Origin: Aestuariibaculum sp. M13
GTDB lineage: Bacteria > Bacteroidota > Bacteroidia > Flavobacteriales > Flavobacteriaceae
Length of the DNA stretch: 64,000 nucleotides
NCBI RefSeq assembly: GCF_024723255.1
Contig: NZ_JANIAC010000003.1
Span: 186,001-250,000, forward strand
Direction: 5' to 3'
In this document: positions 37,444 to 47,568 of the stretch, piece after piece
How the letters are laid out: each line of letters opens with the position of its first letter
Numbering within the stretch: position 1 is the stretch's first letter
The notes under the pieces: model-generated
What the model saw: the letters and a program-made list of their open reading frames with translations, nothing else
What the model was told of the DNA's origin: nothing
The model's database searches: none
Translations under genes and position numbers: made by a program

Positions 37444-37518
37444 CGGGATGTGGCGCAGTCCGGTTAGCGTACACGGCTGGGGGCCGTGTGGTCGCAGGTT
37501 CGAATCCTGTCATCCCGA
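37444..37518 (+). tRNA. tRNA-Pro, anticodon GGG
   Basis: 75 nt. The acceptor stem is CGGGATG/CATCCCG with discriminator A. The anticodon stem CACGG/CCGTG encloses loop CTGGGGG with anticodon GGG. The T arm is GCAGG-TTCGAAT-CCTGT with a G-U closing pair. CCA is not encoded. No hairpin terminator is obvious directly downstream. Confidence 0.95.
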
Positions 37519-37649
37519 CAATCCTCTCTCTCTTTCTTAGTGTTTTAATTCAATGAGTTATATGTTTTGTTTGTAATAGCAATCCTTTGTTATGATTTAT
37601 AGCATAATTTAACACATGTTAACTTCTTAGTTCTTTAGGCGTATTTTTA

Positions 37650-37668
37650 TTATTCTTATTTAGAATAA
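37650..37668. promoter_or_regulatory. inverted repeat in the promoter of the DUF4876 operon
   Basis: TTATTCT-N5-AGAATAA has perfect 7-bp arms and ends 13 bases before the -7 box at 37682. It occupies the place where a -33 TTG should be, and none is present, which suggests a regulator binding site. Confidence 0.5.
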
Positions 37669-37681
37669 ATAAAAATAAAGA

Positions 37682-37689
37682 TATATTTG
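37682..37689 (+). promoter_or_regulatory. -7 box of the DUF4876 operon
   Basis: TATATTTG, an exact TAnnTTTG match, 17 bases before the receptor ATG. There is no TTG at the expected distance. Confidence 0.55.
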
Positions 37690-37706: not shown

Positions 37707-40364
37707 ATGAGGTCTGTATTTCTTTTAATTTGTCTGTGTTCTATTGGTGCTTTAGCTCAGGATAGGGTATTTGGTGTTGTCAATGATGATGCAACTCATC
37801 TGCCTATTGAAAGTGTTACAGTGTTTAATCTCAAAACTGGTAAATGGGATGTTACAGATAATGAAGGGAGCTTTAGTATAGAGGTTGATAAGAATGATTT
37901 TGAAATCGAGTTAAAAATACTCGGAAAGAAAACTAAAGTTTTAACACCAAAAGAAACAGTTGTAAATACGTCATTAGTTATCGTTTTAAAAGACGAAGAT
38001 TTACGATTGGAAGAAGTAGAAGTTACGGCTGTACCAAGGCGAAGTAAAGTTGGTTCGGCGGTAGTTTTAGATGAATATGCCATTAATCAAATTCAGTCCT
38101 ATAGTTTAAGTGATGTTTTAAATCAACTTCCTGGGCAAACCATAACCCCACCTTCATTAAATTCGGCTAATTCCATTTCATTACGAACAGCGCAAGAAAG
38201 TCAAACCAATGCTTTTGGGGTTTCATATGTATTAGATGGCATGCAGCTATCTAACGATGAAAACATGCAGAATTATAATAGTAATTCTGGGCTAACTACC
38301 TACGATAATGTGAATTCAGGTATCGATTTACGTTCTATTCCAGCCAGTAATATTGATGAAATTGAAGTCGTAACCGGAATTCCTGATGCTAAATATGGTA
38401 ACCTAACCAGCGGATTAATTAAAATTAACAGAAAGGCTGGAGTTACACCTTACAGGCTTTCTGCCAATATAAGACAAGGTAATAGCGCAGTTAGTATTGG
38501 GAAAGGCTTTAAAATTAATGATAAGTTAGGAAACCTAAGCTTGTCATTAGATTACGTAAATGCCAATGCCGATCCAAGAAATAGTTTAGAGCAATACAAC
38601 AGACTTACAGCATCTGGAATATGGTCGTTATACAATTCAAATAAAACGATTAAAAATACTTTTTCTTTAACCCTGCATAATAACCTTGATGATTTAAATT
38701 ATGATCAAGATAACGATGATGGAGGTCAGGAGGCAAAATATAAAAAGGATAGAGGGATAAAATTAAGTAACCGATTTACCTGGCAACCTGAGGCTTCATT
38801 TATAGATCATTTAAATGTTAATTTAGGATATGCTTATACCTATCAGCATTCCTATGTTCAGTCTTTTAAAAATGATGGAGGACGTGTGGTGCCAACAGGG
38901 TTAGAAACCGGATTGTATTCCGGTGAATATACGCCTGTTGCCTATATGCAAATCCGTCAGGTGTATGGGCAGCCAGTAAATTTAAATTTAGGTACATCTG
39001 TAGACAAAACAATTAAAGGTTCTCATGTAAGGCATAATTTGTCGTTAGGAGCAAATTATAGTTTTAGTGATAACAACGGAAAAGGAAAAGCTTACGATCC
39101 AGCTAATGCTCATACTCAGGTAACACTTAGTTCAGGGAGTAGTACGCTAAGTTCGGGTGAAGGTATTCGTGCTTTAGATTTTGGGCGTTACGTGAAACCA
39201 AGGATAAATTTTGGCGTTTATGCTCAGGATAATATAACCTGGAAATTGTCTAACGATAACGAAGTGTATGCCAATTTAGGTATGCGTTATGATATTCAGA
39301 ATGGTTTTTCAAATTTTAGCCCCAGAATTAATTTAGGTGTAGAATTAAGTCAAAGTTTAAGTCTTCGAGGCGGATTGGGTTTTGCTTCAAAAACTCCATC
39401 GCTTTCGCAGATTTTTCCGGGAGATAAATATTTTGATATGCTTATTCGTGATTTCAGAACATCTGATTATTCATTTAATCTAATTCAAACGTATAAAACC
39501 GAAATAGCCAAGCAGAATTTAGAGCCTACAAAAAGCTGGAAATACGAATTGGGGTTAAATTATAATACAGGTTTCGGAAACTTGTCGTTAACCGGTTATT
39601 ACAATCATACCTTTGATGCACTGGCGAGTTATAATGCGTTAGAACGGGTTGATTTCCCAGAAGTAGAATTTACCTTTGCCGATAGTCAGTCGCCTCCAAC
39701 CTACGAGGTTGTTGGGTATTCTCCATTATTGCTGGATTATAGTTTACAAACCAATGCGGCAAGTACCATTGATAAAGGGATCGAGTTCTATTTCAACTTC
39801 AATAAGATAAAGGCTATCAATACCTCGTTTAGTCTGGTTGGAACTTATGTATATAGTAAGTCGTTTTCAGATTTAGATCGTGTTATTCAGAATACAGATC
39901 CCCTTGAAGAACAATACTCATATGGCGTTTATAAAAGTACGCCAACGAAAGATGATTTATTTAGACTTCGTGGAATAGTAACACATCATTTGTCCGATTT
40001 AGGATTATTAATTTCTTTAACCGCTGAACAATTTACCAGATCGAAAAGTTTTGCGACTTCGTCAAGTATTTTTCCTATTGCCTATATCAACACTAATGGC
40101 GAACGTGTAAGTATTCCTGAAAATCAGCAGGAGTCTGACCAGTATAGTAGTTTATGGTTAAATCCATCTTCAGCCGAAGATAAAACCACGCCTATCTATC
40201 ATAATTTTCATTTACGAATGACAAAAGAGTTGCTTAATGGCATAAGTATGTCGGTTTATGCTAACAACTTTTTAGACTATCGCCCAGTGATTACGGTAGA
40301 TGGCATTGAATATGTGAAAAACAGCCCAATTAGTTTTGGTGCCCAAATCCAATATAAATTTTAA
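37707..40364 (+). CDS. TonB-dependent receptor heading the DUF4876 operon
   Basis: 885 residues. A signal peptide (1-17, ending ALAQ) is followed by a carboxypeptidase-regulatory-like domain (about 20-95; VFGVVNDDATHLPIESVTVF). The plug (about 105-235) reads VLDEYAINQIQSYSLSDVLNQLPGQ (cited as YSLSDVLNQLPGQ), then IDEIEVVTGIPDAKYGNLTSG. A long barrel ends SISFGAQIQYKF-like (PISFGAQIQYKF). It is not a SusC protein and has no SusD partner. The next gene, for a DUF4876 lipoprotein, begins 6 bases downstream, followed by a second outer-membrane barrel and a di-haem peroxidase. The substrate is unknown. Confidence 0.88.
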   Translation: MRSVFLLICLCSIGALAQDRVFGVVNDDATHLPIESVTVFNLKTGKWDVTDNEGSFSIEVDKNDFEIELKILGKKTKVLTPKETVVNTSLVIVLKDEDLRLEEVEVTAVPRRSKVGSAVVLDEYAINQIQSYSLSDVLNQLPGQTITPPSLNSANSISLRTAQESQTNAFGVSYVLDGMQLSNDENMQNYNSNSGLTTYDNVNSGIDLRSIPASNIDEIEVVTGIPDAKYGNLTSGLIKINRKAGVTPYRLSANIRQGNSAVSIGKGFKINDKLGNLSLSLDYVNANADPRNSLEQYNRLTASGIWSLYNSNKTIKNTFSLTLHNNLDDLNYDQDNDDGGQEAKYKKDRGIKLSNRFTWQPEASFIDHLNVNLGYAYTYQHSYVQSFKNDGGRVVPTGLETGLYSGEYTPVAYMQIRQVYGQPVNLNLGTSVDKTIKGSHVRHNLSLGANYSFSDNNGKGKAYDPANAHTQVTLSSGSSTLSSGEGIRALDFGRYVKPRINFGVYAQDNITWKLSNDNEVYANLGMRYDIQNGFSNFSPRINLGVELSQSLSLRGGLGFASKTPSLSQIFPGDKYFDMLIRDFRTSDYSFNLIQTYKTEIAKQNLEPTKSWKYELGLNYNTGFGNLSLTGYYNHTFDALASYNALERVDFPEVEFTFADSQSPPTYEVVGYSPLLLDYSLQTNAASTIDKGIEFYFNFNKIKAINTSFSLVGTYVYSKSFSDLDRVIQNTDPLEEQYSYGVYKSTPTKDDLFRLRGIVTHHLSDLGLLISLTAEQFTRSKSFATSSSIFPIAYINTNGERVSIPENQQESDQYSSLWLNPSSAEDKTTPIYHNFHLRMTKELLNGISMSVYANNFLDYRPVITVDGIEYVKNSPISFGAQIQYKF

Positions 40365-40370
40365 AAAACA

Positions 40371-41711
40371 ATGAAAAAGATTTTACTATTTGTCCTAACA
40401 AGCTTTTTAATGGCTTGTAGTAATGATGAAGATAATTTTGTAATGCCCGTAAATAATAGTTTTAAGGTAACTTTTAATGAAGGTTACGATTTTGCAGCTG
40501 CGGCTAATGTTGCTATTACATTAGTGAATAACGATGACGGCAAAACATATACGTTAACGACAGATGCTAATGGTATGGCTGATATAGAAGTTGTGCCAGG
40601 GAAATATAATGTAAATGCGTCTTTAGTGTTTACAGCCGAAGAATATTCAGCCTATTGGGGGCAGGAAGTTTCAGATCCGGTTAGTTTTAATGCGTCTTTA
40701 AGTGGCGTGACGATTAATCAGGAATCTACAGGATTGGTAGAAATGGTTTTAGTAAGTGGAAAAATAGGAAGTTTGTTGATTAAACAGGTGTACTTTTCAG
40801 GTTCCGATGTGAAATTAGGCGCTTCATTCAGAGACTTGTTTTTTGAAGTGTATAACAACTCCAACGAAGCTGTGTATTTGGATGGTTTATGTTTTGCTCA
40901 GGTTTATGGAACTTCTTCAGTGAGTTCTACATTACAATCATATCATTTAGCTAATGGTCAGTACGATTGGAGTCAGTCGTATAACCAAACCGATGTGGAA
41001 TATGCAAATACCAATTATGTTTACGCCGATGAGGTATTAAGGTTTCCAGGAACCGGAGAAGAACATGTTTTAGAGCCAAGAAAAAGCGTGATTGTTGCAG
41101 CTACGGCTATCAACCATAAAAGTCCGTTAACGGTTTTAGATAGCGATGGAGAAACTAAAGTTTACGAAGTGCCGGAGCCAGACAGAACAATCGATTTAAG
41201 TAATGCGCTATTTGAAGCTTATTACAGAGATTATCAGGAGTCTATTGGAAGTTCGTATTTAGATTCAGATATCGATAACCCGAATGCAGCTAACATGGAA
41301 ATTGTATTTAAAACTTATGGAGGAAAAGATCTTATTTTAGATCCGTTTGGTCGTGATGCCTTTGTTCTTTTTAAAGAAAATGATGACGCTATAAATTCAT
41401 GGGGACGCGTACCGTTACCATCCATAGCAGGAGAAGATTATACTGAAGATACCAAAGTGTATTTACAAATTCCAAGTGCTGTAATTATTGATGGCGTTGA
41501 GACACAACGAAATGATCCTTCTAAAGCAAAACCAAAGCGTTTAACCGATGATATTGATGCTGGTGAAATTTCGACGATTCTTGGACATTATTCTTCAGAA
41601 TCGGTAATACGTAAAAGTAAAGAAGTAAACGGTATTACAGTTTATCAGGATACTAACAATTCCAGCAACGATTTTATGGTGTTATCACACCCTGAAGTTA
41701 TTATTGAATAA
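40371..41711 (+). CDS. DUF4876-domain lipoprotein
   Basis: 446 residues with a lipoprotein signal ending FLMAC (Cys16). A carboxypeptidase-regulatory-like or Ig-like sandwich comes first (about 28-120; VAITLVNNDDGKTYTLTTDA). A larger domain follows (about 130-440) with LLIKQVYFSGS, FFEVYNNSNEAVYLDGLCF, and late HYSSESVIRKSKEVNGI. This matches DUF4876, a Bacteroidota family found with TonB-dependent receptors, and is probably a surface or periplasmic substrate-binding partner. The FEVYN-SNEAVYLDGL pattern is lamin-tail-like. No biochemical function is known to me. Confidence 0.75.
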   Translation: MKKILLFVLTSFLMACSNDEDNFVMPVNNSFKVTFNEGYDFAAAANVAITLVNNDDGKTYTLTTDANGMADIEVVPGKYNVNASLVFTAEEYSAYWGQEVSDPVSFNASLSGVTINQESTGLVEMVLVSGKIGSLLIKQVYFSGSDVKLGASFRDLFFEVYNNSNEAVYLDGLCFAQVYGTSSVSSTLQSYHLANGQYDWSQSYNQTDVEYANTNYVYADEVLRFPGTGEEHVLEPRKSVIVAATAINHKSPLTVLDSDGETKVYEVPEPDRTIDLSNALFEAYYRDYQESIGSSYLDSDIDNPNAANMEIVFKTYGGKDLILDPFGRDAFVLFKENDDAINSWGRVPLPSIAGEDYTEDTKVYLQIPSAVIIDGVETQRNDPSKAKPKRLTDDIDAGEISTILGHYSSESVIRKSKEVNGITVYQDTNNSSNDFMVLSHPEVIIE

Positions 41712-41763
41712 GCTTTGTTAAGCTTTTAATAAATTAAATTTTACGTTGCGAGTTAATAAAGTT

Positions 41764-43359
41764 ATGAAGCAGTATTTTCTTTTTTTGCTAGGTTTTAGTG
41801 TCAGTTTAGTTGGTTTCGGTCAACGAAAAACTGATAGTATTCAGGATCCTGTGCGTCAAAATTTTGCTCAAGATTTAGTGCAGGAGTTAAGCAAATTTCC
41901 TTTAAACTATCAGTTTGCCACAATTAAAGATTATACGGCTTCTGTTTTATATTTTAAAACCGAAAGCGGTGATTTAAAAGATGGTCGCACCTCCGAAACC
42001 ATAAATAACTTTGGTTTAAAAACTCAAGGGGTGTACCGCAATAAAAACGGCGTATTGTTTTTTGGTGATATTTCTATTTCAAAAGAATTTTATAAAAACT
42101 TAAAATGGAATCTGTCTTACGATTTACCTGAAAATGGGGTGATGAGCGATCCGCATTATTTCGGTGTTTCAAAAGGTGGAAACTGGAGTAATCAGGAGTA
42201 TGATATAAACGGCGGTTTTATTTTGCCTGTAAGTTCTAAAATTAAACTTTTACTAAATACGAATTACACGTTGTTTAATAAGTATCGTATTGGTTTAGAC
42301 CCCAGACCAGAAATAACTTACAATAACTTAGATGTTAATCTGGGTTTAAGTTATAAGTTAGCTGAAAAACATCATATAAAAGCATCGTTTGCTTACGGGT
42401 ATACTCATGTCGATAACGAGATCAAGTTTTCTAATAACGATAAAAACCTACCTGCTAATTACGATATTTATGTAAGATGGATGTCAGGTTACGGTTCTTT
42501 ATCAAGTCCGTTTAAAAATTCTACGCAACGTCGCATCACCGAGTATCAGGCTCATTTAGGGTACACGTTCCAAACGGAAAATTTAACCATAATGGCAGAT
42601 GCCTTGTATAAAGCAGCAGATCAGCTTACGTATAGAAATAATGGAGTTGTAAATAAAGATGATACCTCAAATTATTTTGCAAGTTATAAACCAGAATCAT
42701 TTTCGGTAAATGTTTTAGGTTTATATAAAATAACACCTTTAAAACAGATAAAGTTTAATGTAAGCGGCGATTTTAGTTCTGGAGATAATTTTTGGTATGC
42801 TAAAGGTGGAAAAACCTATTCAGCTCAGGAAAATGCTTTGAAAGCAGGGTTGTCGTACTTAAATTTTAGTTCAGAAAAGATATTTTGGGATATGGGGTTG
42901 AGTACAAAAATTTGGAGCGTAGAACAACGTGATGCTTTGGCGACAACTTCTTCAAATTATACAAATTTAGATTTTCAACCTTACATTATGCGTTCGTTTG
43001 CCGTTTCAGATAATATGGCTTTAAGTCCGTTTTTTAAAAGTACATTGAGGTTGAATCTTGATGAATTATATATTCAGGGAAATACTTCAGATTTAGAAAA
43101 TATTCAGGAAAACGATTTTGCAGCTTACGCGCAGCGCGATTTTTATAGCGAAGTGATTATTCCAAACCATGAATTATACAGTGTGAATCAGTTAAATTTA
43201 AGTGGCGGAACTTTTATTAATATCAATTCTCAAAAGCATTATAATGTAAGTCTGAAATTGCAGGCTGGTTATCAGATTGCTTTCCAACAAATGCATGCAT
43301 TTTCAAGTTCAGACCCTTCACGTTTTAGCGGGCTTGCCAGCTTAACTATCAGCTATTAA
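41764..43359 (+). CDS. DUF6850-like outer-membrane beta-barrel protein
   Basis: 531 residues from ATG 41764; the frame extends six codons to a TTG but the ATG begins a clean signal peptide (MKQYFLFLLGFSVSLVGFGQ). The mature protein is rich in Tyr, Asn and alternating strands throughout and ends FSGLASLTISY, with the terminal aromatic of a Bam-inserted barrel. It lacks a TonB-receptor plug. It resembles the DUF6850 family found next to DUF4876 genes. It lies 52 bases after the lipoprotein gene and 2 bases before the peroxidase gene. Function unknown. Confidence 0.72.
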   Translation: MKQYFLFLLGFSVSLVGFGQRKTDSIQDPVRQNFAQDLVQELSKFPLNYQFATIKDYTASVLYFKTESGDLKDGRTSETINNFGLKTQGVYRNKNGVLFFGDISISKEFYKNLKWNLSYDLPENGVMSDPHYFGVSKGGNWSNQEYDINGGFILPVSSKIKLLLNTNYTLFNKYRIGLDPRPEITYNNLDVNLGLSYKLAEKHHIKASFAYGYTHVDNEIKFSNNDKNLPANYDIYVRWMSGYGSLSSPFKNSTQRRITEYQAHLGYTFQTENLTIMADALYKAADQLTYRNNGVVNKDDTSNYFASYKPESFSVNVLGLYKITPLKQIKFNVSGDFSSGDNFWYAKGGKTYSAQENALKAGLSYLNFSSEKIFWDMGLSTKIWSVEQRDALATTSSNYTNLDFQPYIMRSFAVSDNMALSPFFKSTLRLNLDELYIQGNTSDLENIQENDFAAYAQRDFYSEVIIPNHELYSVNQLNLSGGTFININSQKHYNVSLKLQAGYQIAFQQMHAFSSSDPSRFSGLASLTISY

Positions 43360-43361
43360 AG

Positions 43362-44492
43362 ATGAAAAAATATAGTTTTATTCCAGTACTGGTTTTAGTA
43401 GTGCTTTTTTCAGCATTTAAAACCTATCAGTATTATGATATTAATGTACTTAGAAAGCAATATAGTAGTGGCGATTATACGCAATGGCCGGCACCCGATT
43501 TAGATTCGATAACCGCTATTAACTTTCAAGATATTGGTCATTTAGATGCTGTTGTTTATCCTGAAACGAATCCGTATTCTAAAGAAAAAAGAGAGTTGGG
43601 GAAAACGCTGTTTTTCGATCCGCGTTTATCGTCCAGCGGACAAATAGCCTGTGCCAGTTGTCATGATTCCGAAATTGGCTGGAACGACGGAAGAAGAACC
43701 AGCTATGGGCATAACCGTCAATTGGGGCGAAGAAATTCTATGACGATTTTAAATGTCGCTTACGCTGAAAAATTATTTTGGGATGGCAGGTCAGGCAGTC
43801 TTGAAGATCAGGTTAATTTCCCGATTAAAGATTCATTGGAAATGAATTTTCACATTAATCTGGCTGTCGATACCATATCTAAAATTGAAGGATATAAAGC
43901 ACTTTTTGAAAAAGCCTTTGGTACATCACAAATATCTGAGCAAAGAATAAGAAAAGCTATTGCAACTTTCGAACGTTCTATTGTTAGTGAGAGTACTAAA
44001 TTTGATAAGTTTATTTCCGGTAATTCAGAAGTATATTCAGATGAGGAAGTTTTAGGTTTGCATTTGTTTAGAACCAAAGCCAGATGTATTAATTGTCATA
44101 ATTCAGGATATTTTTCAGATAATCAGTTTCACAATACCGGATTAACTTATTATGGTCGTCCGTTTGAAGATTTAGGGCTTTATGAAGTTACTGGAAAGAA
44201 AGAAGATGTCGGGAAATTTAAAACATCAAGTTTAAGAGAAATATCCAGAACGCGACCATACATGCATAATGGATTATTTCCACATCTAGAAGGTGTGGTA
44301 AATATGTATAACGCTGGGATGCCGCAGCCTAAACGCAAAGCACATCAATTAAATGATACACTTTTTCCAACAACCTCACCTATATTAAAAGCCTTGCAAT
44401 TAACAGTAGAGGAAAAAGGCGCATTGGTTGCGTTTTTAGAAACTTTAGAGTCCAGACGACATAGAGAATCGCCTCCGGAATTACCAATGTAA
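43362..44492 (+). CDS. di-haem cytochrome-c peroxidase / MauG-family protein
   Basis: 376 residues with an N-terminal hydrophobic segment (about 5-20). Two haem-attachment motifs are present, CASCH at 97-101 and CINCH at 242-246. Family segments are FFDPRLSSSGQIACASCH (after LGKTL), LFWDGRSGSLEDQ, ATFERSIVS and RPYMHNGLF. Members reduce peroxide with cytochrome c or, in the MauG and MbnH branches, oxidise side chains of a partner protein. As last gene of an uptake-like operon, a role in processing the imported ligand or its binding lipoprotein is possible. Confidence 0.87.
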   Translation: MKKYSFIPVLVLVVLFSAFKTYQYYDINVLRKQYSSGDYTQWPAPDLDSITAINFQDIGHLDAVVYPETNPYSKEKRELGKTLFFDPRLSSSGQIACASCHDSEIGWNDGRRTSYGHNRQLGRRNSMTILNVAYAEKLFWDGRSGSLEDQVNFPIKDSLEMNFHINLAVDTISKIEGYKALFEKAFGTSQISEQRIRKAIATFERSIVSESTKFDKFISGNSEVYSDEEVLGLHLFRTKARCINCHNSGYFSDNQFHNTGLTYYGRPFEDLGLYEVTGKKEDVGKFKTSSLREISRTRPYMHNGLFPHLEGVVNMYNAGMPQPKRKAHQLNDTLFPTTSPILKALQLTVEEKGALVAFLETLESRRHRESPPELPM

Positions 44493-44514: not shown

Positions 44515-44550
44515 AAAATCCTGAAACAGTATTATTTCAGGATTTTTTTT
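44515..44550 (+). terminator. intrinsic terminator of the DUF4876 operon
   Basis: AAAATCCTGAAA (44515-44526) pairs with TTTCAGGATTTT (44535-44546), followed by T. It separates this operon from the YceI gene. Confidence 0.83.
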
Positions 44551-44902: not shown

Positions 44903-44927
44903 TCGTATAATTTAAAACATAAAAGTG

Positions 44928-45512
44928 ATGAGTAAATTTAGAAAAATAGGCGTAACAGTATTAGGATTAGTCCTGATACTATTTGTAGGTTTAAGTCAGG
45001 TTCAGGCACAAGAATATAATCTAGTAAACAAAGAATCTTCATTAAAAGTTTACGGAACCTCAAGTTTACACGATTGGCATATTGATGCTGAAAATCAATC
45101 AGGTAAAATAAAATTTTCTAGCACAGAAGCGTGCACAATAGACCAGCTTACTTTAGATATTGTAACTGAAAGCTTAAAAAGTGGAAAATCTGGTATGGAT
45201 AAAAACACTTACAAAGCTTTAAATTCAAGCAAGTATAAATCTATAACCTTTAAATTAACTAAAGTTAATACTGTTACAGATAAAGGGTCCGGTGTTTACG
45301 AAGTAAAAGCGCAAGGCGACTTATCTATTGCCGGAACAACTAAAAATGTTCCAATGAATTTTAAAGTTACTATTAACGGTTCTAAAATTACATTAGATGG
45401 AGAAAAAACGTTTAAAATGACAGATTTTAAAGTTGACCCTCCTACAGCAATGTTCGGAACCATCACTACTGGCGATGAAGTAACAGTAAAATACTCAACC
45501 GTATTAAAATAA
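44928..45512 (+). CDS. YceI-family periplasmic protein (1)
   Basis: 194 residues from ATG 44928; a GTG directly before it is the alternative. A signal peptide ends SQVQAQ. The YceI lipocalin-like barrel follows, with SSLKVYGTSSLHDWHIDAEN (cited as GTSSLHDWHI) near the start, SLKSGKSGMDKNTYKALN, and the end KVDPPTAMFGTITTGDEVTV. YceI proteins bind isoprenoid or other amphiphilic ligands. The porin gene follows after 68 bases with no visible terminator between, so they may be co-transcribed. A second YceI-like gene lies beyond the porin. Confidence 0.9.
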   Translation: MSKFRKIGVTVLGLVLILFVGLSQVQAQEYNLVNKESSLKVYGTSSLHDWHIDAENQSGKIKFSSTEACTIDQLTLDIVTESLKSGKSGMDKNTYKALNSSKYKSITFKLTKVNTVTDKGSGVYEVKAQGDLSIAGTTKNVPMNFKVTINGSKITLDGEKTFKMTDFKVDPPTAMFGTITTGDEVTVKYSTVLK

Positions 45513-45580
45513 ATCAAATTTTCAACCACATATTTTTATAAATCAATTTAAAACACTTTACAACTTAAACAATTAGAATC

Positions 45581-46855
45581 ATGAAATCAGTTTTCAAAAA
45601 TGCAATTTTAGGCGTAGCCTTACTAGCAGGAGTTAGTTTTTATGCGCAAAATAATAGAAGTTTAGATAATTACAGGCAACCAGATCAAAGAGGTGTAAAC
45701 GTCTTTGAAGATCAAAAAGATACCATTACAACATTCGATGGTCTTAAAGTACGTGTAGGAGGAGCATTCGCTTTACAATACCAAGCTTTAGATCATGAAA
45801 ACTCTGGAGCAGTTCCATTAAAAGAAATAGGTTACAACTTTAACTTAGCAACAGCAAACTTAGATTTAGATGTAGCTTTAGCAGATGGTGTTCGTATGCA
45901 CTTAAGAACCTATTTATCATCTCGTCACCACCCGGAACCATACGTTAAAGGGGGGTACTTTCAAATTGATAAATTAGACTTTATTAGTGAAGGTTTATTA
46001 AGTAACTTAATGAAACATACAACCATTAGAATTGGTCACATGGAAAACAACTATGGTGACACACACTTTAGAAGAACTGATAATGCGCAAGCTATTTACA
46101 ATCCATTTGTTGGTAACTTAATTATGGATTCTTTTACAACCGAAGTTGGTGCAGAAGTTTACTACAGATGTAATAGTGGACTATTTGGTATGGTTGGTTT
46201 TACTAATGGTAAATTAAATCAGTCTGTAGTAGAAAGTAACGGTACAACTGGTGGAGCTTCATTTTTAGCAAAACTAGGGTATGATAATCAATTAAATGAT
46301 GATTTAAGAGTACGTTTAACAGGATCTTTATATAATACAGGATATGTTGCTAACAATTACTTGTATACCGCAGACCGTGCAGGTTCTAGATATTATTTTG
46401 TAATGGAAAATGTTGATGCTTCTGCTTCAAGTCCATTCAGATCTGGTCGTTTTGACCCTGGATTTAGAAATAAAATAACAGCGGTTATGGTTAATCCATT
46501 TGTGAAATATAGAGGTTTAGAGTTTTTCGGAACAATTGAAATGACTAATGGTAGAGCTTTAGCTGAAACAGATAGAAGAAACACAAATCAATATGCTGGT
46601 GAGTTAATCTACCGTTTCGGACAAAATGAAAACTTCTATGTAGGTGGACGTTATAACATGGTTGATGCTGAATTAGCAAGTGGTGATGATGTAACTATCG
46701 ATAGATTCCAGGCAAGTGCAGGTTGGTTTATGACTAAAAACATCTTATTAAAAGCTGAATATGTTAACCAATGTTATAAAGATTATGCTGTTGGATCTCA
46801 ACTAGAAGATGGTAAATTCAACGGAGCAATGGTTGAAGCAGTAATTAGTTTCTAA
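45581..46855 (+). CDS. outer-membrane porin-like beta-barrel protein
   Basis: 424 residues. The signal peptide is 1-22 (ending SFYAQ). The mature part is built of short amphipathic strands with Gly/Asn/Tyr turns (GLKVRVGGAFALQYQ, GRYNMVDAEL) and ends with a terminal Phe (EAVISF), typical of Bam-inserted barrels. It contains no plug and is thus porin-like rather than a TonB receptor. Codon usage is strongly biased, implying an abundant protein. It lies between two YceI-like genes and ends at a long hairpin terminator (46894-46957). Substrate unknown. Confidence 0.75.
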   Translation: MKSVFKNAILGVALLAGVSFYAQNNRSLDNYRQPDQRGVNVFEDQKDTITTFDGLKVRVGGAFALQYQALDHENSGAVPLKEIGYNFNLATANLDLDVALADGVRMHLRTYLSSRHHPEPYVKGGYFQIDKLDFISEGLLSNLMKHTTIRIGHMENNYGDTHFRRTDNAQAIYNPFVGNLIMDSFTTEVGAEVYYRCNSGLFGMVGFTNGKLNQSVVESNGTTGGASFLAKLGYDNQLNDDLRVRLTGSLYNTGYVANNYLYTADRAGSRYYFVMENVDASASSPFRSGRFDPGFRNKITAVMVNPFVKYRGLEFFGTIEMTNGRALAETDRRNTNQYAGELIYRFGQNENFYVGGRYNMVDAELASGDDVTIDRFQASAGWFMTKNILLKAEYVNQCYKDYAVGSQLEDGKFNGAMVEAVISF

Positions 46856-46893
46856 AACAATAAGAACGATTAATAGCTAAATAGTAGTAGATA

Positions 46894-46957
46894 AAGTCTC
46901 TAAAGTATTGTTAAATAGTTAAACTTTCGACTAAACAATTACTTTAGAGACTTGTTT
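46894..46957 (+). terminator. long hairpin terminator after the porin gene
   Basis: AAGTCTCTAAAGT plus ATTGTT pairs with AACAAT, a 1-nt bulge and ACTTTAGAGACTT, making a stem of about 19 bp with a 22-nt loop. A T-rich tail follows. Confidence 0.75.
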
Positions 46958-46992
46958 ATTATCTTTATAAAAGAATTAAAAGAAAAAGAAAA

Positions 46993-47568
46993 ATGAGAAG
47001 AGTTGTGTTCATAGTGTTTATACTAGCAGCATTAGCTTTTACAAATAAGGATACTGCGGTAAATAACACGTCGATTGTTGTGTCTTCAAAAAGTACATTA
47101 GTAGTTAAAGGTACAACCAATGTAAATACTTTTAAATGTGTTTTTGATTCCAAACGTCTTAAAAATCCAGTATCTGTAACTTATTTTTCAAATGGAGAAA
47201 AATTAAAATTTAGAGAAACAGCGCTGGTTTTGGACAATGGTTGTTTCGATTGTGGCGGAAAAGGTATTAATAGAGATTTTCAGAAAATTCTGAAATCAGA
47301 AAGCCATCCGCAGATTAAACTCATTTTAAAAGAAACCAGTAGTTTGGAAGATAAAAATAATGTTCAAACATTGGTAGATGTTGAAATTGCCGGAATTAAA
47401 AGAGAGTATAAAATACCAGTTACCGTAAAAAGGAATGGTAGTACTTTAATCAATGGCGGTTTAAAAGTGTGTTTAAGCGATTATAATTTAGAACAACCTA
47501 AGAAAATGTTTGGTCTAATTACAGTTGACAACGAAATATTCATAGATTTTAATTTAGTAGTCGAATAA
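46993..47568 (+). CDS. YceI-like periplasmic protein (2)
   Basis: 191 residues with a short signal or anchor (1-17). The barrel pattern is YceI-like: STLVVKGTTNVNTFKCVF at the start, INRDFQKILKSESHPQIKL in the middle and YNLEQPKKMFGLITVDNEI at the end. It carries a CxxC pair (Cys84, Cys87 in NGCFDCGGKG) that YceI copy 1 lacks. That pair could bind metal or form a disulfide. It follows the porin gene after a terminator and has its own terminator at 47596-47630. Confidence 0.78.
   Translation: MRRVVFIVFILAALAFTNKDTAVNNTSIVVSSKSTLVVKGTTNVNTFKCVFDSKRLKNPVSVTYFSNGEKLKFRETALVLDNGCFDCGGKGINRDFQKILKSESHPQIKLILKETSSLEDKNNVQTLVDVEIAGIKREYKIPVTVKRNGSTLINGGLKVCLSDYNLEQPKKMFGLITVDNEIFIDFNLVVE

Follow-up and report, generated by a model that had tools for sequence, protein, structure and literature searches.

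In two well-studied Bacteroidota, genes for DUF4876 lipoproteins belong to those that respond strongly to iron. In published data, PG1019-PG1022 of Porphyromonas is up 21- to 214-fold and BT3625-33 of Bacteroides 38- to 128-fold in iron starvation (PMC10434189). In PG1019-PG1022, BT1938-39 and BT3631-33 the gene for the DUF4876 lipoprotein stands beside that of a TonB receptor (PMC10434189). Here we describe an operon with the same arrangement, a DUF4876 lipoprotein gene in one gene run with a TonB-dependent receptor gene, in a 64,000-nucleotide stretch of Aestuariibaculum sp. M13 DNA (hereafter the window; positions are counted from its first letter), which belongs to a 4.16 Mb genome in nine contigs. 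The operon occupies positions 37,707–44,492 and comprises four genes on the same strand, encoding the receptor, the DUF4876 lipoprotein, a plugless DUF6850 outer-membrane beta-barrel and a di-haem enzyme of the MauG/cytochrome c peroxidase (CCP) family.

The hosts of PG1019-PG1022 and of the Bacteroides DUF4876 operons are anaerobes; XusC of the Bacteroides xenosiderophore system XusABC, a second point of comparison, is of the PepSY type, and no PepSY-type reductase was found with Pfam among the four genes of the window operon. Unlike the window operon, the Porphyromonas and Bacteroides DUF4876 operons contain no di-haem enzyme in the published rows, and BT3625-33 has ABC (ATP-binding cassette), DUF4857 and PepSY genes in its place (PMC10434189). 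XusABC, as far as its description was available, combines a lipoprotein with a TonB transporter that carries an N-terminal carboxypeptidase-like domain, as here, and is upregulated in iron starvation; XusC, termed an iron-siderophore reductase, has no counterpart among the window's four genes, and neither a DUF6850 barrel nor a di-haem enzyme is described for the system (PMC13142918). In the MbnH-MbnP pair a Tyr-type di-haem enzyme is likewise encoded beside a lipoprotein, whereas the operon enzyme belongs to a separate CCP clade and scores below the MbnH cut-off.

The operon is real, widespread and conserved, and its parts are known, namely iron-responsive DUF4876 loci and Tyr-type di-haem enzymes. 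New within the literature searched are the four-gene combination and the finding that a single enzyme clade recurs alongside two types of importer. In the open-access literature searched we found neither DUF4876 nor DUF6850 described functionally, no account of a peroxidase with TonB under iron limitation in Flavobacterium and, in the parts consulted, none of a combination of MauG, SusD and lipoprotein. The operon links DUF4876 and DUF6850 to iron and to a MauG-type haem enzyme. The reading we favour, although an even call, is that the whole imports under iron starvation and includes an oxidase of the periplasm, driven by peroxide, that acts on the cargo or on the transporter.

A conserved importer core and its downstream genes

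The four genes, all on the plus strand and separated by gaps of 6, 52 and 2 bases, encode proteins that score above their Pfam cut-offs. The receptor (37,707–40,364; 885 amino acids) matches CarbopepD_reg_2, plug and TonB barrel models. It is followed by the DUF4876 lipoprotein (40,371–41,711; 446 amino acids, lipobox Cys16; DUF4876 at 92.3 bits, cut-off 27.9), the DUF6850 barrel (41,764–43,359; 531 amino acids from the ATG, with an alternative TTG start at 41,746; DUF6850 at 175 bits, cut-off 27) and the di-haem enzyme (43,362–44,492; 376 amino acids; CCP_MauG at 180.4 bits, cut-off 25.6). A terminator-like hairpin lies at the operon end (44,515–44,546, plus strand); hairpins of this kind are not in excess in the whole region (5 vs a shuffle mean of 4.5). 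A sequence-only reading had listed the four genes with these gaps, a -7 box, a terminator and the haem motifs CASCH and CINCH, all of which we reproduced. Its description of a two-domain lipoprotein and a plugless barrel agrees with the predicted structures, in which the DUF4876 protein has an extra N-terminal domain and the DUF6850 protein is a barrel.

To describe the distribution of the gene set we used two samples. The first consisted of 51 stretches around DUF4876 hits from the phylum and from relatives, of which one (L021) was dropped as it had no readable core. For the second we kept the best 80 of 180 hits that a search for the window's DUF4876 subtype gave in named genomes; this sample is biased to that subtype, as five of the six query sequences came from enzyme-bearing loci. 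Five loci of the named sample (L145, L146, L163, L176 and L179) repeat first-sample loci and were left out of the pooled counts, which contain 82 distinct operon enzymes, 100 distinct clade members and 114 distinct receptor upstream regions; the partial enzyme of L212, below the 300-bit limit, is not among the 82.

A TonB receptor gene occurs within three genes of DUF4876 and in the same gene run in all 50 readable relatives, and a DUF6850 barrel accompanies DUF4876 in 49 of the 50; the contig end truncates the barrel in L068, while it lies four genes off in L085 and is missing in L086. The conserved core is therefore receptor, DUF4876 and DUF6850. The di-haem enzyme lies downstream of this triple in 10 of the 50 loci (11 of 51 counting the window). 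All four genes were found in 73 of the 80 named loci, which is not a family frequency because of the query composition. The seven incomplete loci lack the receptor (L149, L154 and L188, on short contigs), the enzyme (L145, L147) or both (L156), or stop after DUF4876 (L216). Genera with all four genes include Flavobacterium, Chryseobacterium, Pedobacter, Mesonia, Psychroflexus, Sphingobacterium, Mucilaginibacter, Rufibacter, Algoriphagus and Empedobacter, and the closest relative of the window among the named DUF4876 loci listed is that of Mesonia aestuariivivens (Flavobacteriaceae), with 54% identity. Counting the window's genome, DUF4876 is present in 11 of 149 relatives and in 37 of 395 genomes across the phylum. 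The idea of a common system would have suffered had the four genes rarely been neighbours; instead the triple recurs across the phylum, in some of the loci with the enzyme as fourth gene, and does so more than chance would allow.

What follows the core differs between loci. BLAST relatives of an ABC ATPase, a permease, DUF4857 and two PepSY proteins were found near none of the enzyme-bearing loci (0/10 and 0/76), whereas they occur near 11 (a count that may contain unrelated ATPases), 7, 8 and 5 of the 40 enzyme-free loci, respectively. Relatives of extracytoplasmic function (ECF) sigma factors and of FecR are found near 9/40 and 8/40 enzyme-free loci, compared with 3/76 and 5/76 enzyme-bearing ones. 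This suggests one importer with interchangeable downstream modules. In one genome group (L080-L093) a gene for a protein of about 740 amino acids follows DUF6850; the protein scanned, from L085, is BNR-repeat/YCF48-like with a sorting tail of the type IX secretion system, and a BLAST relative is found near 19 of the 40 enzyme-free loci.

The predicted structure of the DUF4876 protein (predicted local distance difference test, pLDDT, 88.4) matches the fold of BT_1938 (4q1z) with a Z score of 29.4 over 267 residues and a root-mean-square deviation of 2.4 Å. In the model a transthyretin/CnaB-like domain at about residues 25–131 precedes the DUF4876 domain. None of the matches listed for the model is named XusB, and a XusB-like fold is still conceivable. 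The lipobox is followed by acidic residues (CSNDED), and acidic residues in this place are a surface-export signal. By a rough pattern, with repeats included, 81 of 132 DUF4876 proteins and 12 of 104 enzymes have a lipobox, and at least two acidic residues follow it in 43/132 vs 0/104. The DUF4876 lipoprotein is probably located at the cell surface. The DUF6850 model (pLDDT 83.8) has about 18 long strands by eye count. The 50 Foldseek matches listed for it are generic barrels, with template modelling scores of 0.29–0.40 by query length, and do not point to a more specific fold.

An operator-like box in common with iron genes

Directly ahead of the -7 box lies a feature that the sequence-only reading had not listed, the palindromic, operator-like box TTATTTAGAATAAATAA (37,656–37,672, no strand), a perfect 7-3-7 inverted repeat 34 bases 5′ of the receptor start codon. 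The -7 box itself, TATATTTG (37,682–37,689, plus strand), is of the Bacteroidota type, for which TAnnTTTG is the consensus. The genome has one other exact copy of TTATTTAGAATAAATAA, ahead of a small gene and a ferritin gene; the small gene (L132:5067-5366), between box and ferritin gene, encodes a 100-amino-acid protein with no Pfam match. Near copies precede feoA-feoB (neighbours of a DtxR-family gene), a pair of genes for DUF4856 and imelysin, a TonB receptor gene with PepSY, and an imelysin gene with a gene for a DHOR di-haem protein (L140:4242-6823, contig C5 of the same genome), and one further near copy (L289) lies 205 bases from another receptor gene. The imelysin-DHOR locus is another case of a di-haem protein paired with an iron gene under this box. 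Comparison of the operon promoter with those of three iron loci revealed a common layout, the box followed by TAnnTTTG. Surroundings were examined for 23 box sites (10 distinct sites from a first scan, the seven loci L288-L294 from a second and six, L295-L300, picked by eye), of which seven (window, L132, L133, L140, L289, L295 and L296) lie ahead of iron or TonB genes.

The box also recurs in relatives. With up to two mismatches it was found upstream of 32 of the 114 distinct receptor genes, compared with 17 of 1008 other genes at the same loci; the Fisher p-value of 3.7e-22 is too small, since many of the 114 are close kin. In Markov shuffles of 119 receptor upstream regions, repeats included, the mean was 2.0 and the maximum 7, whereas 33 of the 119 carry the box.

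The genome encodes two DtxR-type proteins and one Fur-type protein. In P. gingivalis a DUF4876 gene shifts with hemin in the same direction as HmuY (PMC10470040), and PG_1019-1020 go up alongside the hmu genes when PG_0686 is mutated, whether peroxide is present or not (PMC10101095). Because the operator is common to iron genes of this genome and published DUF4876 operons are induced by iron starvation, iron is the likely metal, and the earlier suggestion of an import system for a metal complex gains support. Iron import is the best supported element of our proposal, and we regard it as quite likely.

A distinct clade of di-haem enzymes

Both haem motifs of the enzyme, CASCH (residues 97–101; 43,650–43,664, plus strand, as for all features of this gene) and CINCH (residues 242–246; 44,085–44,099), are kept in the operon enzymes. 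In bacterial CCPs a Met serves as a haem ligand; from an alignment of a relative to 1iqc, the corresponding position is occupied by Tyr316 (44,307–44,309). Tyr occupies this position in all 82 distinct operon enzymes, while 24 other Bacteroidota CCPs have Tyr in 18, Met in three and Phe in three cases. The enzyme thus has the two CxxCH motifs and the CCP_MauG domain of a canonical bacterial CCP and lacks its Met ligand to the high-potential haem. By alignment it would instead have a Tyr-His six-coordinate haem as in MauG and BthA, both of which are Tyr-ligated (PMC6405878). The inter-haem Trp (W140), present in all 82, is found in MauG as well, whereas BthA has Ser there (PMC6405878). Unlike both, the operon enzyme is found in an importer context, has its own N-terminal WP motif and has no mau genes adjacent. 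Glu160 is present in all 100 distinct clade members. The position of the CCP distal His is occupied by His in 53 of the operon enzymes, Glu in 22, Asn in five and Asp in two, and because of this variation activation through loss of the distal His is unlikely to be general.

Further residues set the clade apart. In 100 distinct members compared with 18 other enzymes, we counted W42 in 99 vs 1, W107 (43,680–43,682, shortly after the first haem motif) in 97 vs 0, F217 in 100 vs 1, H234 in 99 vs 2, R237 in 100 vs 0, N244 in 100 vs 0, H257 in 98 vs 1, E269 in 96 vs 2 and Y274 in 99 vs 4. Trp42-Pro43 (43,485–43,490) is part of the N-terminal motif Y..WPx[PA], which is complete in 95/100 members and 0/18 others; the motif rather than Pro43 alone is the clade marker, as Pro43 also occurs in six of the 18. 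The best NCBIfam scores of the enzyme are to MbnH (TIGR04039, 236.1 bits) and MauG (TIGR03791, 225 bits), below the cut-offs of 362.85 and 443.85, and in a sequence comparison with the PDB its best matches are cytochrome c peroxidases. A Pfam search for an MbnP partner gave no match in the rest of the operon or in the next three downstream genes. By sequence, the enzyme is neither a canonical CCP nor MbnH.

In a tree of 55 rows, 31 operon enzymes and six others form one clade (support 100/99). Three Met-type CCPs fall outside it, as does another clade in which three of the members were found to lie beside MbnP (PF20243). The enzyme therefore does not group with the three Met-type CCPs of the tree; a grouping with ordinary peroxide-detoxifying CCPs would have spoken against the system proposed by the sequence-only reading. 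On the tree, six changes of the operon label are required, which means that the enzyme entered or left the operon context several times.

A profile of eleven operon enzymes found 26 hits of at least 454 bits in 23 of the 395 genomes, with the next hit at 291 bits, a clean separation of the clade. By hand count nine lie in DUF4876 operons, ten in operons with SusC, SusD and a lipoprotein and seven elsewhere, so that 19 of the 26 are in TonB-import operons. Among the ten SusC/SusD contexts, Pfam confirmed FecR in L141 and L274 and an ECF sigma factor in L274; the rest were judged from sequence starts, and for L223 the SusC gene was available in part only. In L277 the lipoprotein position is filled by a 520-amino-acid protein without BLAST match to the other lipoproteins. 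Elsewhere, the enzyme genes of L278 and L279 are divergent from a 725-amino-acid gene, whose product in L278 is an OMP_b-brl_3 barrel. DUF4876 (37 genomes) and the clade (23) co-occur in 11 of the 395 genomes (Fisher p-value 6.7e-7, uncorrected for kinship).

The window's own genome holds a second clade enzyme, in a FecR-SusC-SusD-lipoprotein-enzyme operon (L141:7201-15658, contig C3), and nine other genomes of the 395 have this layout as far as examined. As in the window operon, the enzyme gene comes after those for a TonB importer and a lipoprotein; the L141 operon differs in its dissimilar lipoprotein, its lack of DUF6850 and the FecR gene ahead. In hhalign the SusC/SusD-linked lipoprotein and DUF4876 aligned at their signal peptides only, and common ancestry of the two is still possible. 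In Flavobacterium johnsoniae the MauG-like Fjoh_2477 is listed in a PhoX cluster and is induced by phosphate depletion (PMC8115612).

Possible targets of the enzyme

In the mechanism we propose, a DtxR-family repressor, or Fur, would silence the operon at high iron. In starvation, the DUF4876 lipoprotein would bind an iron complex and pass it to the TonB receptor, as XusB does to XusA, with the DUF6850 barrel perhaps as partner pore or scaffold. The periplasmic di-haem enzyme would then abstract electrons with H2O2 in the style of MauG and BthA, most likely from the imported chelate or from an envelope partner shared by several TonB systems, and the oxidation could free the iron or stop the ligand from rebinding it. 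Since one clade serves two dissimilar lipoproteins, the target should be common to both importer types: cargo, receptor side or envelope partner. Among these we favour the cargo with modest confidence; that the imported cargo is what the enzyme oxidises is itself a tentative proposal. Rather doubtful is the more general idea that a dedicated Bacteroidota MauG-type clade, marked by the N-terminal WP motif, Trp107, CxNCH and the Tyr ligand, serves at least two dissimilar TonB importers by adding a peroxide-driven oxidative step to uptake. If true, this step would be the oxidative counterpart, in aerobes, of the reductive release of iron from siderophores. An enzyme that acts on the cargo would mean a new iron-unloading route, and one that acts on a protein a new modification.

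In favour of the proposed mechanism we count the box ahead of iron genes and of homologous operons, the published induction by iron starvation, the ECF sigma factor and FecR relatives near enzyme-free loci, the place of the clade in TonB-import operons with two dissimilar lipoproteins, its retained Glu160, haem motifs and inter-haem Trp, and its co-occurrence with DUF4876. Several observations weigh against it. The enzyme is missing from 40 of the 50 core loci, and is therefore dispensable for import; around 7 of the 26 clade genes no import operon was recognised, and DUF4876 is absent from 12 of the 23 genomes with a clade gene. The box signal stems mainly from the window's own subtype (27/68 receptor upstream regions in the named sample) and is uncommon outside it (5/46 in the phylum and relatives sample). 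Genome-wide counts of the box show no excess over a reversed control (13 vs 12; 272 vs 388), so that the regulon rests on the locations of the sites, and six of the 23 sites examined were hand-picked.

An alternative, which we regard as unlikely, is that the enzyme modifies proteins in the way of MauG or MbnH and oxidises a Trp or Tyr of DUF4876, the receptor or the barrel and thereby builds a site for a metal or ligand. The conserved Tyr ligand, inter-haem Trp and Glu would suit such a function, as would the best NCBIfam scores, to MbnH and MauG, even if below cut-off. The most subtype-specific Trp of DUF4876, W200, looked promising because it is contained in the pattern used to draw the named sample. 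A sample drawn with the Pfam model, and so free of that pattern, has W200 in 7 of the 11 rows with the enzyme and in 5 of the 42 without it, one of the five (L020) being a doubtful alignment; the W200-positive, enzyme-free L023, L071, L073 and L077 come from genomes with a clade gene elsewhere, which agrees with this alternative. However, W200 is missing from the enzyme-bearing L019, L056, L059 and L079, and in the receptor and the barrel we found no Trp, Tyr, His, Cys or Met with a distribution that cleanly follows the enzyme (best Trp, receptor W306, in 7/11 enzyme-bearing vs 12/40 enzyme-free loci). As W200, the best protein candidate, does not track the enzyme and the clade also pairs with a lipoprotein dissimilar to DUF4876 in SusC/SusD systems, the earlier idea of DUF4876 processing by the enzyme has lost weight, and we rejected a DUF4876 Trp as its general substrate.

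A function as a local peroxide scavenger, shielding the iron-import site from Fenton chemistry, is improbable for the enzyme. Tyr replaces the Met ligand in all 82 operon enzymes and the clade is apart from Met-type CCPs, even though the CCP_MauG fold, the conserved Glu160 and the best PDB matches count in its favour. The named genera with the enzyme are mostly aerobes or facultative, which we also counted in favour of scavenging. The Bacteroides and Porphyromonas operons, in the published rows, list no such enzyme (PMC10434189), which points the same way. The redox states of Tyr-ligated BthA differ from those of canonical bacterial CCPs, which argues against scavenging, although a BthA ligand mutant retained peroxide reduction with an external donor (PMC6405878).

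Least probable is that the cargo is another scarce redox-active compound (haem, a copper chelate, a flavin or a quinone), with iron control reflecting a haem cargo or the cost of haem: the responses of the P. gingivalis genes to hemin (PMC10470040) and in the PG_0686 mutant (PMC10101095) would fit, as would the SusC/SusD-linked enzyme copies, which are not known as iron systems, whereas the box common to iron uptake and storage genes and the very strong iron response in two species (PMC10434189) speak against it.

The iron-starvation importer proposed here is flanked by further genes in the window. A tRNA-Pro (ggg) gene (37,444–37,519) lies immediately 5′ of the operon. Since the DUF4876 gene was found in none (0/3) of the other genomes of the genus searched, the operon was possibly acquired beside this tRNA gene. 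Past the operon terminator, at 44,925–47,568, are genes for a YceI protein, a 424-amino-acid protein and a second YceI protein; the 424-amino-acid protein has no Pfam match and is porin-like by eye.

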